Origin: a virus
Virus record (IMG/VR): IMGVR_UViG_3300032242_001265
Coordinates: 1-38,563 of that record
Direction: 5' to 3' (one strand)
DNA: 38,563 nt
Numbering within the stretch: the stretch's first letter is position 1; every line of letters starts with the position of its first letter. Below are positions 1,122-38,563 of this stretch, one piece after another. The notes beneath the pieces are model-generated. The model was not told where the DNA came from. It saw nothing but the letters and a program-made list of their open reading frames with translations, and searched no databases. A program made the translations under genes and the position numbers.

Positions 1122-1154
1122 AAAAAAGGTGGTCGGACTTATGAGCCGACCACC
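1122..1154 (-). terminator. intrinsic terminator
   Basis: On the minus strand GGTGGTCGG, 9 nt loop, CCGACCACC is followed at once by six T. The 9-bp GC-rich stem plus U tract is a textbook Rho-independent terminator for leftward transcription. It ends the proposed RNA at 1122-1470 and lies ahead of the 698-1087 gene. Confidence 0.9.
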
Positions 1155-1470
1155 CTATCAGATCCGCAGGTATCCAGCCTGCAAACTTGGAGTTAGATCC
1201 GATCTGGCATTGGCCGCCAGAGCCTTGCAAGGCTGTGATCTTGCTCGCGTCATCTTGTCTGCAAACGCAACGCTGATCGCACACACGCCTTACTATCTGC
1301 TCCGAGTTTGCAGCTCTGGAGCATTTGTGGATTTGCGGAGAGTCGAACCCCGGTGCTGATCGCTTCTCCATGAGAGTTTTAGCGCCCAGACGAAACCATC
1401 CAAACCCGAAAGGCTGGCAGGCTATCGGAGAAAGGGTCAAGGGAATAACCGATCCGAAGCCTGCCAGCCC
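1122..1470 (-). ncRNA. candidate structured noncoding RNA, about 350 nt
   Basis: This gap has no convincing gene but is packed with stems in RNA order. An 11-bp stem 1412-1422/1459-1469 is extended by 5 bp (1425-1429/1453-1457). Then come CGGGG-TTCGACT-CTCCG (1336-1352), which looks like a tRNA T-arm; a 9-bp stem with one bulge (1298-1306/1314-1323); AGCCT-TGCA-AGGCT (1221-1234); CTGGC/GCCAG (1204-1220); GCAGG/CCTGC (1166-1182); and the terminator (1122-1154). A promoter at 1476-1504 would start the RNA at the first stem. I could not complete a tRNA or tmRNA cloverleaf and recognise no known RNA class. A TTG-started frame (1440-1084) crosses it, but its product is Cys/Ser-rich with no family look and runs through the terminator. 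Confidence 0.65.
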
Positions 1471-1475
1471 ATCTA

Positions 1476-1504
1476 ACTCTACCCTACCTTTGGATGAACA
1501 TCAA
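1476..1504 (-). promoter_or_regulatory. promoter of the candidate ncRNA
   Basis: Minus strand TTGATG (1504-1499), 17 nt spacer, TAGAGT (1481-1476). Six bases later comes the GG that opens the first RNA stem (near 1469). The -10 overlaps the TAG stop of the upstream gene. Optimal spacing and the match to the start of the structure make this more than a chance hit. Confidence 0.6.
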
Positions 1505-26557: not shown

Positions 26558-27917
26558 TCTGAGCCTTGTCTGCTAGTGGTTGGTGACAGTTTGGACAAAC
26601 TTTTGCGGATCTAGGTGCTGGCATTCTGCATGACGGACAGAACCGAGCCAAGGCCGCTAACCCAATGATACTCGCTTGGCTATCCATGAGTTCGTGCATC
26701 GCCCATACCATCGCATCCATGCGGTCTGGTGATTGGTTGCTGTCTGGTGTAAAGTTGCACATCTGATCTTCGAGCGGTGCAAACATTCCGACATGGTGCG
26801 CGCGCATCTGTTCGTAGAGTGCAGCTACAGGTTCGGCTCTCACGATCTTTCCGCGAGTGGCTGTCACTTTCTTGTATGAGATCGATGGATCGACCTGCCG
26901 GAGCAACAGTTCGATCATGTCTCCGCCGTTGTTTGTTTCTCCGATGATCCGATCAGCGTTCCATTTGCGGTAGGCATCGACGGCCTGGCGCGCCCATTTC
27001 TCTGGCGATGCTCGCAGAGTGAGATCATCGAGAACGTAGTAGTGTCCGTCTGATGATACGCCGGCTACCACGATGCCGGTTTCGTCTGATGCTTCGCCGG
27101 ATGTTACTGCTGGATCGATAGCGACCACTACGCGGATGAGTGGTGGGTGATCGGTCACTCTGTTGGCTTCGATCTGTGCGTGTGTCCATAGTGCGCCATC
27201 GACTTCATCAACGATTTCGCCGTAGAGTTCTTGCCGACCGAGCCTAGTGCCTTCGTAGCGTAGGCGCATTTCTGCGAGCGCTGTGGCAGCTAGGTTGTCG
27301 GCGTTATCGAATGTGGATCCGCGCTGGACATACACGCCATCTCTGGATGAGAGATCCTTGATCAGTTTGACAGGTCGTGGTGTGGTGGTGACAACTGTTT
27401 GCGGATGATCGCCTAGGCGCAGACCAAACTGATACTGATCCCATGCATCGGCGTATTTGAATGACGCTAACTCATCGAACCAGCCACCATGAAACTGTGG
27501 CCCACGGAGCCGGTTGGGTTCTTCGCCGGAGAATAGTTTTATGCGTGATCTGTTTGTCAGCACGATCTCTCCGATGGATCGGTTGTAGTCTTTCAGCGTT
27601 CCATACTCTCGAAGGATCTGCACCACTCCGGAGACACCTTCGGCGCAGGTATCTCTGGCATCAGCAAAGGTTGGTGCAACGATCGCCCAGCGAGTGTTGC
27701 GGTGGCGCGATGCCATCCATGCGATCCATTCAGCTGCAGATCTGGTTTTGCCAAATCCGCGACCGGCAAGCAACAGCCACGTGTTCCAATCGTTGTCTGG
27801 TGGGAGTTGGTTAGGTCTGGCTTTCTGGAGTGTCCAAAATCCGCGCCTGGCCGCGATCGCCTGCTCCAAGGAGATCTGCGAGCCGTTGGACTTCTCGATC
27901 AATTGTTGCTCCGTCAT
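26550..27917 (-). CDS. terL: terminase large subunit (GTA/COG5323-like) with zinc ribbon, 455 aa
   Basis: Packages DNA using ATP and cuts it. Walker A is WLLLAGRGFGKTRS (GRGFGKT 52-58), Walker B ends FDEL (Asp148, Glu149), motif III is TTTPRPVKL (about 177), and the nuclease begins AIDPAVTSG (Asp268). LRGPQFHGGW and QFGLRLGDHPQ are hallmarks of the gene-transfer-agent type. The last 30 residues add CPSC ... CPNC (427-444), a zinc ribbon not usual in this family. It overlaps the small subunit gene by 107 bp. Confidence 0.93.
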   Translation of the reverse strand: MTEQQLIEKSNGSQISLEQAIAARRGFWTLQKARPNQLPPDNDWNTWLLLAGRGFGKTRSAAEWIAWMASRHRNTRWAIVAPTFADARDTCAEGVSGVVQILREYGTLKDYNRSIGEIVLTNRSRIKLFSGEEPNRLRGPQFHGGWFDELASFKYADAWDQYQFGLRLGDHPQTVVTTTPRPVKLIKDLSSRDGVYVQRGSTFDNADNLAATALAEMRLRYEGTRLGRQELYGEIVDEVDGALWTHAQIEANRVTDHPPLIRVVVAIDPAVTSGEASDETGIVVAGVSSDGHYYVLDDLTLRASPEKWARQAVDAYRKWNADRIIGETNNGGDMIELLLRQVDPSISYKKVTATRGKIVRAEPVAALYEQMRAHHVGMFAPLEDQMCNFTPDSNQSPDRMDAMVWAMHELMDSQASIIGLAALARFCPSCRMPAPRSAKVCPNCHQPLADKAQNV

Positions 27918-28350: not shown

Positions 28351-28542
28351 ATGAGAACAAAGGGATCGGCTCGATTTGAAGCCTACTACAAAGTCCAAAT
28401 CTGGCAAGAGCGTTCGCTCTGCTGGCTAGACATCCAAAAGGCGTATGCCAGCGCTGATGAAGCCAGAGCAAACTTTCCGGCTGGAGAGACATCACGCGTC
28501 ATGGAGATCACTCCGGCTGGTCGGCGTCCGCTAGGAAACTAG
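28351..28542 (+). CDS. leaderless small protein, only plus-strand gene, 63 aa
   Basis: MRTKGSARFEAYYKVQIWQE, then WLDIQKAYASADEARANFPA and RVMEITPAGRRPL. Compact alpha/beta look with a basic N-terminus; similar small proteins occur in actinophages. I chose the ATG at 28351, not 28336, because the promoter places the first RNA base there. It is convergent with the ParB-methyltransferase gene (35-bp tail overlap) and divergent from terS. Being alone on its strand and beside the operator, it may be a regulator of the early-to-late switch; this is inference. Confidence 0.75.
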   Translation: MRTKGSARFEAYYKVQIWQERSLCWLDIQKAYASADEARANFPAGETSRVMEITPAGRRPLGN

Positions 28543-30814
28543 GATCGATCTCGATCTCGCCACAGTTTAGCGTGGCTTTTTTGGCATCGCCCTTCACGAA
28601 AACTAGCACGTTCTGGTGCGCCTTTCCGAGTTTGCGACCGGCGTTGAACATTCGTGCAGCTCGAACCCCTAGTGATCCGATCGGGGAAACTAGGATCGCA
28701 TCGTTGTAGAAGCGCAGCCCGGCATCTTCGAACGCTCTGATCGTGTCTGGCACAAATCCGCGATAGGTTCCGGTTTTTTTGTCGCGCACGTCACCGATCA
28801 CCCAAACAGCAAATCGATCGTCTCGAAGTCGTTTGGCGGCCTGGCTGATGATTGATCTGTAGATCTCCATGAATTTGTCGTATGGCATGTTGCTGATGTC
28901 TGCTGGATCATCCGAATAGACTTCAAGATCTGCGTATGGTGGACAACTCATGATCATGTCTGCCATGAAGTCTGTCGGGAGCAGATCATCCATCTCATTG
29001 CTGTCTCCGGCGAACCATGTGGCTGTGCCTGTGATGTCAATGTTGGTGCTGGTTGCTGTTGCTGTTTCGCGTCTGCCTACGATCCACAGCAGATCTCCGG
29101 TTTGTAGGTAGGGTAGCGTTTTTGCTTCGTAGATCGGATCGAGAGTGATGCCAAAGAATTGTGTGCGCTCTGCCGGCGTGTGGTAGTCGAGATCGCTTTG
29201 GATGATCGTGACCATGTTGCGCCAGTTTTTCGGAGCGTATTTGTCTAGGCGATCTGTTGGATCTGCGCCGACCTGCACTCCAAGCACCGGGATCTCGATG
29301 CCGGCTTTTTGTAGGCCTGTGAGTATTCCGGCGAGCGCCATGCCAGAGCCGACAGGCACAACAATGCGTGAGATGCCGTCTGGCAGGTTTGCGGTTTGCG
29401 ATGCTGTAGCTGCAATGATCGCTTGATGCTCCATGCCGAAAGGGATCTCTAGCCAGTTGGGATTTGCCTGCGCATCTTCTCTGGCTCTGGCTACGATCAC
29501 GTTGTTGTAGCCTGCCTTGTGTCTGATGATCTCCGCTCCGGCTTCTGCGGCCGCGATGAGTTCTGGAGTGTCTGCGCCTTGGGGAACATGGCATCTGGCT
29601 TGCAGATTGTATTTCTTGGCGAGCGTAGCAACTATGTTTACCTGTGGCGATTGTCTCGAGCCGGCGGTGATCAGCCCGATGATCTCACCCTTGGCTAATG
29701 CGTTCTCCACGATCGTTTGGCAGGCGCGCACCTTGCCACCGCGCGATCCCATGATGTTGAAGGTGTCATCACGCTTCACCCAATACTGTCCGACCTTTTG
29801 GACAGGGGTGAGTGCTGATGCATCATCGGTGTCTGGTGTCTGATCGGCTGGCTGATCGTTGGTGATCTCTAACCATTGCGCTTGGTTCGCTTCGATTTGT
29901 TCTGCGCGGAGATCAATGCCGGTGTAGTGCCGTCCGAGTGTTGCAGCTACTATTCCGCGCACCGATCCGCCGGCGAATGGATCGAAAACTGTTCCGCTCT
30001 CTGGAGAGAACCATCTGTAGGCGAGTTCGCAAAGCACCGGATCAAAGATTGATGTGCCGGTGGTCGATAGGTTTGCGGTATCGGGGATCGTCAGGTAGTC
30101 GCTTTCAAACTCTGCGAGCGATAGCGAGCGTCCGATCTTTTTTTCGGCTTCCGATTTCTGGTCGTAATAGTTTGGCACGATGCCAGAGAGTGATCCGAGC
30201 GTGAGCGGTTTCTTTTTATCCGGGTTGTTGCCTGCGTTGATCTGTAGGATCGTGTCGCTCATGCCCAAAAGGTTGTCGGCGCGACCTTCTTCTGATCGGA
30301 TGCCCATGGCTAACCATTTGCGTTTCCGTTCCTGCCAGTAGCCGGCGCGCTGATCAAGGATCGAGAAAGGTGGAACAACAAATCTGTCGGCCAGGGTGAC
30401 CTTTTCGCCCGGCTCTGTCTGATCTGCATCATCATCGATCTGTTTCTCAAATCCGAGCATGGCAATATCCCAGCCTTCGGTTTCGAGTTCGACTAGTTGG
30501 CTCGCTAGGATGCTTTCATCCCAATCGGCTAGTTCGGCTGTGCGGTTATCTGCGAGCGCGAACGCTTTGGCCTGGTCAAGTGTCCATTCTTCTGGCACTC
30601 TAACGATGTCGATTTCTTTCCAACCAAGTTTTTTGGCTGCGGTGATCGTGCCGTTGCCGGCTACCACAACGTTGCCTTTGCCGACCACGATCGGTTTGCG
30701 TTGCCCAAAGGTGGCTAGGCTGTTTTTGATTGCGGTTAGGTTGCTGTCATCGTGCTTGCGCGCATTGTTTGGATCGAGCTGCAGTTCCGAGATTTTGATG
30801 GTTTCGATTTTCAT
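28508..30814 (-). CDS. ParB-like domain + DNA methyltransferase with nested PLP-enzyme-like domain, 768 aa
   Basis: Residues 1-115 are a ParB/Srx-like domain (LDPNNARKHDDSNLTAIKNS, VVAGNGTITAAKKLG). Residues 140-310 begin the methyltransferase, with SAM motif FDPFAGGSVRG (277-286) and GRHYTGIDL. Residues 335-585 are a fold-type-II PLP-enzyme-like domain as in ACC deaminase/D-cysteine desulfhydrase: YWVKRDD, GSRGGKVRACQ with the likely PLP Lys361, ITAGSRQSPQVN (382-393) and the phosphate loop VPVGSGMALAGI (486-497). Residues 597-745 resume the methyltransferase: MSCPPYADLEVYSDDP (622-637, catalytic CPPY), GRKLGKAHQNVLVFVKGD. The target is thus an exocyclic amino group or a further modified base. 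It is the last gene of the block D operon. Related chains occur in other actinophages to my recollection; the role of the PLP part is unknown. Confidence 0.88.
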   Translation of the reverse strand: MKIETIKISELQLDPNNARKHDDSNLTAIKNSLATFGQRKPIVVGKGNVVVAGNGTITAAKKLGWKEIDIVRVPEEWTLDQAKAFALADNRTAELADWDESILASQLVELETEGWDIAMLGFEKQIDDDADQTEPGEKVTLADRFVVPPFSILDQRAGYWQERKRKWLAMGIRSEEGRADNLLGMSDTILQINAGNNPDKKKPLTLGSLSGIVPNYYDQKSEAEKKIGRSLSLAEFESDYLTIPDTANLSTTGTSIFDPVLCELAYRWFSPESGTVFDPFAGGSVRGIVAATLGRHYTGIDLRAEQIEANQAQWLEITNDQPADQTPDTDDASALTPVQKVGQYWVKRDDTFNIMGSRGGKVRACQTIVENALAKGEIIGLITAGSRQSPQVNIVATLAKKYNLQARCHVPQGADTPELIAAAEAGAEIIRHKAGYNNVIVARAREDAQANPNWLEIPFGMEHQAIIAATASQTANLPDGISRIVVPVGSGMALAGILTGLQKAGIEIPVLGVQVGADPTDRLDKYAPKNWRNMVTIIQSDLDYHTPAERTQFFGITLDPIYEAKTLPYLQTGDLLWIVGRRETATATSTNIDITGTATWFAGDSNEMDDLLPTDFMADMIMSCPPYADLEVYSDDPADISNMPYDKFMEIYRSIISQAAKRLRDDRFAVWVIGDVRDKKTGTYRGFVPDTIRAFEDAGLRFYNDAILVSPIGSLGVRAARMFNAGRKLGKAHQNVLVFVKGDAKKATLNCGEIEIDPSFLADADQPE

Positions 30815-35362: not shown

Positions 35363-35692
35363 TTATTCGGGCCAGGCCTTGTCTAAAACCATGAGCGCGA
35401 TGATCGCGTAGTTTGCCAGATCCACGAAACTGTCGCGCAGGCTTTCGTTCTGTGGCTGCGCTCCAGTATCGATTAGGTGATTGATCCTAGCCTGCTTGTC
35501 GTGCATCCTGACGCGCAGACCATTGAGAGCGCCACCAGGCGCGCGAGAAATGTTTGTCGGGCCGTAGTCCAAATGTTTCTTGATCAGCAACTGCTCCGCT
35601 TCGGCGAAGCGTTTGTGCAGCTCGATTTCAAAGGCGCTCTGCGCCGGCTCTGGTTTAGGATCGCTGTTCTGTGCGCTGATCATCGTTGCCAT
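35363..35692 (-). CDS. Nmad1/DUF1599-like protein, 109 aa
   Basis: HLDYGPTNISRAPGGALNGL, VRMHDKQARINHLIDTG and LRDSFVDLANYAIIALMVLD follow the DUF1599 pattern, which I recall as nucleotide modification associated domain 1. Its chemistry is unproven, but the family was named for its neighbourhood with DNA-modification genes. Here it directly follows the split C5 methyltransferase (38-bp overlap) and ends the P2 operon. AAGG is 5 nt before the ATG. Confidence 0.8.
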   Translation of the reverse strand: MATMISAQNSDPKPEPAQSAFEIELHKRFAEAEQLLIKKHLDYGPTNISRAPGGALNGLRVRMHDKQARINHLIDTGAQPQNESLRDSFVDLANYAIIALMVLDKAWPE

Positions 35693-36590
35693 CTATGCCT
35701 TCTAACATTTCGGAGATACCAAGAAGTTGCAATGCTAACATAGCCTGCTGTGGCACTACGCCGTTTCCCAGCGCTCGCAGTTGATCGGCTCTCGAGATTT
35801 CAACATCTGTTACCCAGCCGGCAGGGATACCCATCATCCACTCAGCAAAAGCCGGGTTGAGCCTTGGCGCTCCATCTCTGCCATCGTTGCGCGTTGGCTC
35901 CGGAGCTACTCTGCCGATCACTCTCTCCCAGCGTTTGATTGCTGGTTCGAACCTACCCCAGTTAGTAGCCAGCACTTGATCTTCGATGCGAGATTTTGGT
36001 GCGCCAGCGTCGATTTGCTTTTGTGTTCCTGGGCTTGCTGATGCGCGCGGTGTTCCGATCAACGGAATGTTCAATTGAAGCGAATCAGATCTTTCTATCG
36101 TGGTGGCTTCAGCTGCAGGTTCTAGATTATTGATCACATACTCTCGCAGGTTTGAGTAGCCGGCAGGCTGGCGCTCTTTGCTCTCCGCAATCTTTTCAGG
36201 TGATCTTGGCGGTAGGCTGTCCATCGTGTTGGGTGTTGGCAGTAGGCGCATCTCTGACAGATCTCTGATCTGATCTGATAGTCGAACTTGATGATTTCGC
36301 TCGCGCGCAAGACTTTCTCCAACAACTCCACCAGCTGCTTCGTCGGCTGCAGGCGTTCTAAAGAGCGCGGATGGTGCGATTTGCGATGATGAAAACTCTA
36401 AGCCGATTGTGGCAAGATCCGGCATCGGAAGCGCGTAGAGCGATCCATTTACTGTCATAGCCGACATCGGAAAGACTTCCTGATACAAGACCCATGGCTC
36501 TGAGAATAGGCTGTCGTTCGTCATAGACCATACTTGCAGGATCGAGTTCCATGTTGCTATGGGCGTGCGTGTTGAGTAGTCCGCGGACAT
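35655..36590 (-). CDS. C5-cytosine methyltransferase, C-terminal (target-recognition) polypeptide, 311 aa
   Basis: Carries the second half of a C5 methyltransferase: a variable target-recognition region with LLPTPNTMDSLPPRSPEKI, then RLNPAFAEWMMGIPAGW (243-259, motif IX) and RALGNGVVPQQAMLAL (272-287, motif X). No catalytic Cys. ATG at 36590 with GGTGAT about 8 nt upstream. The first 77 residues overlap the end of the catalytic polypeptide in a different frame. Together they recall two-chain enzymes such as M.AquI. The alternative is a +1 frameshift at CTT TAG (36363-36358), giving one chain of about 425 residues. Confidence 0.85.
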   Translation of the reverse strand: MSADYSTRTPIATWNSILQVWSMTNDSLFSEPWVLYQEVFPMSAMTVNGSLYALPMPDLATIGLEFSSSQIAPSALFRTPAADEAAGGVVGESLARERNHQVRLSDQIRDLSEMRLLPTPNTMDSLPPRSPEKIAESKERQPAGYSNLREYVINNLEPAAEATTIERSDSLQLNIPLIGTPRASASPGTQKQIDAGAPKSRIEDQVLATNWGRFEPAIKRWERVIGRVAPEPTRNDGRDGAPRLNPAFAEWMMGIPAGWVTDVEISRADQLRALGNGVVPQQAMLALQLLGISEMLEGIDGNDDQRTEQRS

Positions 36591-37891: not shown

Positions 37892-38563
37892 TCAGATCAC
37901 TTTTGCATCGATTTCCTGATGGCGCACAGCTGCAAGCAGATCATCAATCCTGTTCGTCTGCTCCCATGATCGTCCAGCCCAACCAAAGTGTCCATAGCGA
38001 GCCGTATCCTGATAAATCGGTCTGCGCAGATCTAAATCTGCAATGATCGCGCCAGGCCGCAAATCGAAAACGCGCCTGATCATCTTTGCAAGTTTGCTGT
38101 CGCTGATCACACCTGTGCCAAACGTATCGACATACAAACCAACAGGATCAGCCACGCCGATCGCATAGGCAACCTGCACTTCGCACCGCGATGCCAGTTG
38201 AGCTGCAACCACATTTTTCGCTACCCAACGCATTGCGTATGCAGCCGATCGATCTACCTTTGACGGATCCTTGCCGGAGAAAGCGCCACCGCCATGGCGA
38301 GCCATTCCGCCGTAGGTATCGACAATGATTTTGCGACCGGTCAGCCCGGCATCAGCCATTGGCCCGCCCATCTCGAAACTGCCCGATGGATTGACTAGCA
38401 GTTTGATCCCATCCGGATCGAAACCAGCCTGCCCGATGATCGGAGCGATCCACCATGCCACATCGTTTTGGATGTCGCGGAGATCAGCCGATCTAGTTTG
38501 CGTGGAGACGATCACAGTATCTAGACGCTTTGGTGTGCCATGTTTGTCGTAGGCAATCGATAC
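37892..38563 (-). CDS. metK: S-adenosylmethionine synthetase, C-terminal part (gene begins at 651)
   Basis: Continues the frame that starts at 651; 38441-38563 duplicate 1-123. Contains [40 protein letters not shown] and the second family signature GGGAFSGKD (residues 267-275 of the full protein), then [16 protein letters not shown]. The C-terminus [15 protein letters not shown] is the usual family ending. The stop TGA at 37894-37892 is followed by promoter P2, with no terminator seen between them, so the early operon may run on into block C. Confidence 0.97.
38441..38563. repeat. terminal direct repeat, right copy
   Basis: Identical to 1-123; see the left copy. It lies within metK. Confidence 0.97.

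Follow-up and report, generated by a model that had tools for sequence, protein, structure and literature searches.

A phage locus that almost certainly encodes a tmRNA reduced to its tRNA-like domain, with relatives in other phages

The closest described counterpart of the RNA reported here is the tmRNA of the mycobacteriophage DS6A, which consists of the tRNA-like domain (TLD) only (Mao et al., 2009; tmRNA Website tmID 11587). A tmRNA collection of 2025 comprises 97,179 sequences; 79 are of phage origin, and nine are standard-form sequences that lack a coding part. The one phage example of that form named in its text is DS6A (PMC11915505). The mRNA-like part has likewise been lost, and the TLD kept, in the CDS-less tmRNAs of mitochondria (jakobid and others) and of Mallomonadaceae plastids (PMC11915505), the mitochondrial form being usually permuted and in two pieces. 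Additionally, ssrA-type genes for full-length tmRNAs, whose mRNA-like domain with its tag makes full trans-translation possible in principle, occur in phage Bxz1 and its relatives, in Streptomyces phages and, permuted, in phage Melnitz, and large structured noncoding RNAs such as GOLLD are also known from phages. In bacteria, tmRNA releases stalled ribosomes; SmpB binds it via the elbow and D-loop of the TLD, and the pair G3·U70 together with A73 directs charging by AlaRS (PMC3968760; PMC3985003).

The RNA analysed here, encoded on the minus strand of a viral DNA stretch of 38,563 nt (the window), is of the same kind as the DS6A RNA, to which it is likened by description. It differs from the latter in belonging to another phage and in lying behind an operon hairpin and ahead of a long hairpin and a terminator. 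Unlike the mitochondrial forms, it is a one-piece molecule of standard order; unlike the full-length phage tmRNAs, it has no mRNA-like domain; and it bears no sequence or structural relation to GOLLD and similar large phage RNAs. The kind is already known from DS6A, and the window RNA is a further member of it; the wide spread and the phage restriction of the form appear to be new, though a preprint or subscription paper may already say so.

A tRNA-like domain in an operon gap

The window carries a 123-bp direct repeat at its ends, with one metK gene split across them, and is therefore in all likelihood the complete genome, circularly permuted and about 38.4 kb long, of one phage. Its genes include a ParB-like/DNA methyltransferase fusion (28508-30814, minus strand) and a further DNA methyltransferase (35655-36590, minus strand), and ARAGORN calls a tRNA-Ile inside the terminase gene (27604-27697, minus strand) that is probably a false positive. 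The locus occupies a 391-nt gap between CDS 1479-1853 and CDS 698-1087, both read in the direction of the RNA, so that the operon is interrupted here as the preliminary description had stated. Its claim of a structured RNA also holds, in that the whole stretch (358 nt) folds more stably than its shuffles (z -6.1; 0 of 100 shuffles equally stable) and the core is backed by covariation in related phages. The ORF at 1084-1440, which traverses the TLD and the terminator and has no relatives in the phage group, was rejected as a coding sequence.

The core of the locus is almost certainly a phage gene for a tmRNA that consists of the TLD alone (Table 1). The 7-bp acceptor stem contains the G3·U70 wobble and is followed by A73, directly 3′ of which stands CAA, CCA not being encoded. 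GAU joins the acceptor 5′ strand to GGUUUCGUC, and the D-loop is open and without a D stem, as in tmRNA; GGUUUCGUC is one base off the motif GGNUUCGAC of the latter. The P2 helix stands where an anticodon arm would be, and a small apical hairpin on it replaces the whole mRNA-like domain. The loop previously described as T-arm-like belongs to a canonical T arm (CGGGG-TTCGACT-CTCCG, 1352-1336), and P2 and T arm are together as in the tRNA-like domain of tmRNA. GCAC, in the place of the GGAC motif of tmRNA, stands between P2 and the T arm. The D-loop motif and the T arm are just 37 nt apart, and there is no room for a resume codon and tag reading frame with its stop or for pseudoknots, as a full tmRNA with its mRNA-like domain would have them; the parts follow the standard order without a coding part, as in DS6A.

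Table 1. Features of the locus and of related loci (window positions unless a relative is named)
Feature	Position	Strand	Basis or remark
TLD-only tmRNA (almost certain), 80 nt, without mRNA-like domain	1328-1407	-	covariance model; RF00023; family covariation
Acceptor stem, 5′ strand GGGUUUG	1401-1407	-	pairs with 1329-1335, G3·U70 wobble; sequence and model alignment
Acceptor stem, 3′ strand CAAAUCC, with discriminator A73	1328-1335	-	sequence
Open D-loop motif GGUUUCGUC	1389-1397	-	family and tmRNA: GGUUUCGAC; model alignments
Short P2 arm	1357-1388	-	UGGGCGCU (1388-1381) with AGCGAUCA (1364-1357), one mismatch
T arm CGGGG-UUCGACU-CUCCG	1336-1352	-	sequence; model alignment
Two-tier operon hairpin (16-bp composite stem of the preliminary description)	about 1410-1470	-	z -8.4; directly upstream of the TLD
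Long imperfect hairpin, 168 nt	1160-1327	-	-65 kcal/mol, z -3.2
Intrinsic terminator, 9-bp stem (1154-1128) and U6	1122-1154	-	z -4.9; sequence
Promoter-like TTGATG-N17-TAGAGT, not accepted	1476-1504	-	8/12 consensus bases; overlaps the end of CDS 1479-1853
metK (SAM synthetase) across the terminal repeat	1-651 and 37892-38563(-)		
Two-tier hairpin in relative L217	3732-3804		
Two-tier hairpin in relative L227	2547-2619		
Two-tier hairpin in relative L218	6974-7036		
Two-tier hairpin in relative L220	18366-18437	-	
Two-tier hairpin in relative L225	18445-18512	-	
Two-tier hairpin in relative L222	6153-6226	-	

Covariation and distribution of the family

The first relative, an unannotated stretch of 80 nt in the tRNA cluster of the Streptomyces phage Shaeky, came from a distant blastn search. 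An exact 24-nt pattern of the window T arm and acceptor found nothing in IMG/VR, and a degenerate one was needed; GGTTTCGACN{26,50}GGGGTTCGA matched at least 120 contigs there. No fewer than 87 loci, Shaeky included, have the TLD in full, with an acceptor and a T arm that pair, and at least 51 of these are distinct. The covariance model R1, made from 14 other phage TLDs, all of 79 nt, with the window left out, matches the window over its full length at 1407-1328 on the minus strand (64.5 bits, E 4.2e-16), the best tRNA in tRNA-rich phage loci reaching 19.9 bits.

Covariation was assessed in an alignment of 58 matches, 57 of them distinct, that was fitted to the model. Standard pairs fill 98.1% of the pair cells, whereas shuffles give 69% and slid partners 44-61%, the pairing of acceptor and T arm being partly due to selection because these were used to choose most members. 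Of the 18 pairs, 13 vary on both sides, with a covariation score of 0.70 versus 0.13. P2 was not used in choosing members; all six of its modelled pairs covary, with 95% pairing. In 56 of the 57 distinct members G3·U70, which is the identity pair for alanine, is kept, and the gap-free MAFFT alignment of the 14 sequences gives the same covariation picture as the model-fitted one. Pair-preserving change in related phages, the test proposed in the preliminary description, thus supports the core of the structure.

The tmRNA model of Rfam, RF00023, also matches the window (focused search, E 1.6e-12), spanning model positions 1-374 with a deletion in the middle. Its score, 33.3 bits in the focused and 41.8 in the genome search, stays below the gathering score of 47, a threshold set for full-length tmRNA, of which the window copy lacks about 290 model positions. 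Among the relatives, the gathering score was passed by all eight loci first scanned and by 44 of 47 family TLDs in whole-record searches, Riptide passing it only via a separate full-length tmRNA. Since tRNA-sized matches in bacterial genomes reach 37.5 bits with RF00023, the window's score with this model is weak by itself, and R1 carries the identification. The earlier statement that the RNA matches no known class is therefore not upheld; the proposed Rfam search yields a match to tmRNA, and no family, GOLLD and the other phage RNAs of Rfam included, reaches its gathering score in the window.

Several other assignments were rejected. An ordinary tRNA does not fit, because the region has neither anticodon arm nor D stem and gives no ARAGORN or RF00005 match, and no tRNA exceeds 20 bits with R1. 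A circularly permuted tmRNA is contradicted by the 5′ acceptor strand preceding the T arm; RF04321, for permuted or two-piece tmRNA, gives a truncated match of 22.2 bits against 47. Reading by eye the frames after the TLD, we saw no convincing tag with stop that might be hidden in the 3′ domain, and a new RNA class is ruled out by the homology with tmRNA.

The form is nearly confined to viral DNA. The strict pattern GGTTTCGACN{20,46}GGACNGGGGTTCGANTCCCC occurs in 73 viral contigs and in two of 84,980 bacterial and archaeal genomes. Next to one of these two matches are phage head genes, and close to the second is a match to a phage primase/helicase family; each is in a metagenome-assembled genome that also holds a full-length tmRNA. 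Seven phage isolates carry the form, namely the Streptomyces phages Shaeky, LuckySocke, pSt2308, BRock and Riptide, phiPsal1 of Pontimonas and Jojan60 of Stenotrophomonas, and in none of the seven is a tmRNA annotated at the match. The TLDs recur in two contexts, in tRNA clusters and ahead of the major capsid gene, at a distance of 50-300 nt. A search for SmpB genes found none in 46 TLD-bearing records and none in the window; absences from many of the contigs are soft because these are fragments, the seven isolates being deposited as complete genomes.

Some further matches were observed. Riptide (PV654398) appears to carry a full-length tmRNA at 94862-95130 (RF00023, 92.9 bits) and also a TLD-like RNA at 83298-83374 (R1, 53.3 bits). 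Weaker R1 matches of 26-29 bits occur in Synechococcus phage S-CAM1 (L132, 1482-1533), Pseudomonas phage PA_L9 (L130, 1462-1541) and Ruegeria phage RpAliso (L003, 1962-2041); these keep mainly the T arm and acceptor, are mostly unannotated, and are perhaps permuted tmRNAs or smaller relics.

The covariation bears on whether the TLD might be a functionless relic, either a decayed full tmRNA or an attP copy of one end of a tmRNA gene of the host. Genes for tmRNA and tRNA commonly serve as attachment sites (PMC10865867); moreover, the score of the window copy is one of the lower ones in the family. However, compensatory change keeps both acceptor strands and P2 across the 57 distinct sequences, and this purifying selection at the level of pairs speaks against a relic for the family. 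An attP core would hold only one gene end, and a tyrosine integrase was found in just one of 47 records and neither a tyrosine nor a serine recombinase in the window, for which reason an attP core was rejected. We therefore regard a relic as very unlikely. Compensation for a tRNA gene broken by integration, as in tRNA-dependent lysogeny (PMC10865867), was also dismissed, because a TLD alone cannot replace tmRNA; for DS6A, the same source lists integration at a tRNA-Lys gene.

Neighbouring hairpins and the terminator

The preliminary description took the locus for one autonomous RNA of about 350 nt, of a class of its own and with its own promoter. The terminator it had noted is indeed an intrinsic one, with its U6 at 1127-1122, and the 5′ stem (about 1468-1410) is indeed very stable. 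The promoter is present as a sequence at 1504-1476, but its match is at chance level, 364 sites at least as good occurring in the window with spacers of 15-19 allowed. The TLD is missing from the global minimum-energy fold of the stretch, which makes the stems listed earlier unlikely as the biological structure there.

Comparison with relatives separates the 5′ stem from the TLD. Synteny from recT to the 698-1087 gene is kept in six relatives, and all six have a hairpin in the corresponding position ahead of the 698-1087 homologue, with a TLD there in none. These two-tier hairpins, that of the window (1468-1412, minus strand) included, have a long outer stem, mostly of 11-15 bp, their stem sequences differ widely while the pairing is kept, and several loops have pyrimidine-rich motifs in common; they are possibly a conserved regulatory or terminator element. 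In L217 and L227, the gap before the homologue is about 100 bp and holds only the hairpin with T residues behind it, whereas the window has, behind a hairpin of this kind, some 290 extra bp with the TLD, the 168-nt hairpin and the terminator. The 16-bp stem is therefore an element separate from the TLD, and the supposed unit is a composite of three neighbours. Judging from synteny, the TLD unit was probably added behind the operon hairpin, the alternative being loss in the relatives. Only one of 50 other records related by terminase (G004) has a TLD, at another place and on the other strand, which indicates that the TLD is dispensable in this phage group.

A single autonomous RNA could still draw on the good terminator, on the stability across the whole stretch and on the 3′ hairpin that our account leaves without explanation; given the chance-level promoter over a CDS end, a 5′ stem that relatives have without the rest, a core that is tmRNA and a composite that recurs in no relative, it is most improbable. 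For the 168-nt hairpin no homologue was found, including among the TLD family loci. We hold it quite unlikely that TLD, 3′ hairpin and terminator form a two-domain phage RNA whose 3′ domain has gained a new role, such as recruiting a partner or holding the TLD inactive until processing.

As a separate observation, about a dozen of 47 TLD loci, the window included (other examples are L005, L011, L015, L017, L026, L029, L065, L085 and L112), have a strong hairpin that stops 0-6 nt short of the 5′ end of the TLD and is often stronger than in shuffles. Such a hairpin may be either a leader or a gene-end terminator that TLDs settle behind.

Possible action on host trans-translation

We propose that the TLD-only RNA is probably a competitive inhibitor of host trans-translation, namely a decoy that can be alanylated. 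First, the RNA would be transcribed together with the operon, and its 5′ end would be cut by RNase P just behind the 5′ hairpin. Upon addition of CCA, it would be charged with alanine by the host AlaRS, and the charged TLD could then bind the host SmpB and EF-Tu instead of the host tmRNA. Inhibition might result either from holding SmpB or from entry into stalled ribosomes without a template, and in infection the phage proteins would be spared from tagging, or ribosome rescue would be blunted. For the window RNA, processing, charging, SmpB binding and inhibition are all predictions.

Two papers that cite Mao et al. (2009) report strong inhibition of tmRNA in E. coli by a DS6A-type TLD, whether or not it can be charged, with SmpB titration as a possible cause (PMC4131195; PMC11915505). 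The inhibition reported there concerns a similar molecule expressed in E. coli and not an infection. Together with the retention of the SmpB and AlaRS features without a template, this report favours a decoy or poison of trans-translation, as does the near confinement of the form to viral contigs with no SmpB gene found in the 46 records or in the window. Against a decoy stands that the window TLD departs from its family in having GUC for GAC, GCAC for the GGAC motif of tmRNA and a G·U pair in the T stem, and therefore the window RNA could be less active; the dispensability of the TLD among the terminase relatives also counts against it. The nearly exceptionless retention of G3·U70 implies that charging matters, and leans towards entry into the ribosome as a charged TLD over simple titration of SmpB.

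The same retention keeps alive the rival idea that the charged TLD serves with host SmpB as a rescue factor, as suggested for mitochondrial tmRNAs without a CDS; it would add one alanine in place of a tag and help to clear stalled ribosomes, from which phage translation would profit. If SmpB were only titrated, there would be no need for the almost invariant G3·U70 and A73; in mitochondria, CDS-less tmRNAs occur together with SmpB and have been proposed to assist where mRNAs are incomplete (PMC11915505), and the family often lies within tRNA clusters. However, the RNA offers no resume codon and hence no stop codon for ribosome release, and the DS6A-type molecule is reported to inhibit the endogenous tmRNA in E. 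coli. Such rescue without a tag therefore seems unlikely.

Alternatively, the tRNA-like fold could act in cis, as a site at which processing by RNase P and 3′ nucleases leads to the separation or stabilisation of mRNAs, the freed RNA having no function. This would suit the position of the TLDs within operons, with repeated cases shortly ahead of the major capsid gene, and the terminator 3′ of the TLD in the window, but an ordinary tRNA would serve as well, and the SmpB-specific D-loop motif, the GGAC motif and the invariant G3·U70 would be left unexplained; we give it little credence.

In conclusion, the TLD-only form is represented by at least 51 distinct sequences; these come almost entirely from viral contigs, and cellular genomes contain almost none. 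If the family inhibits rescue as reported for DS6A, trans-translation would be a frequent target of phages, and isolates such as Shaeky and phiPsal1 make this idea testable now.
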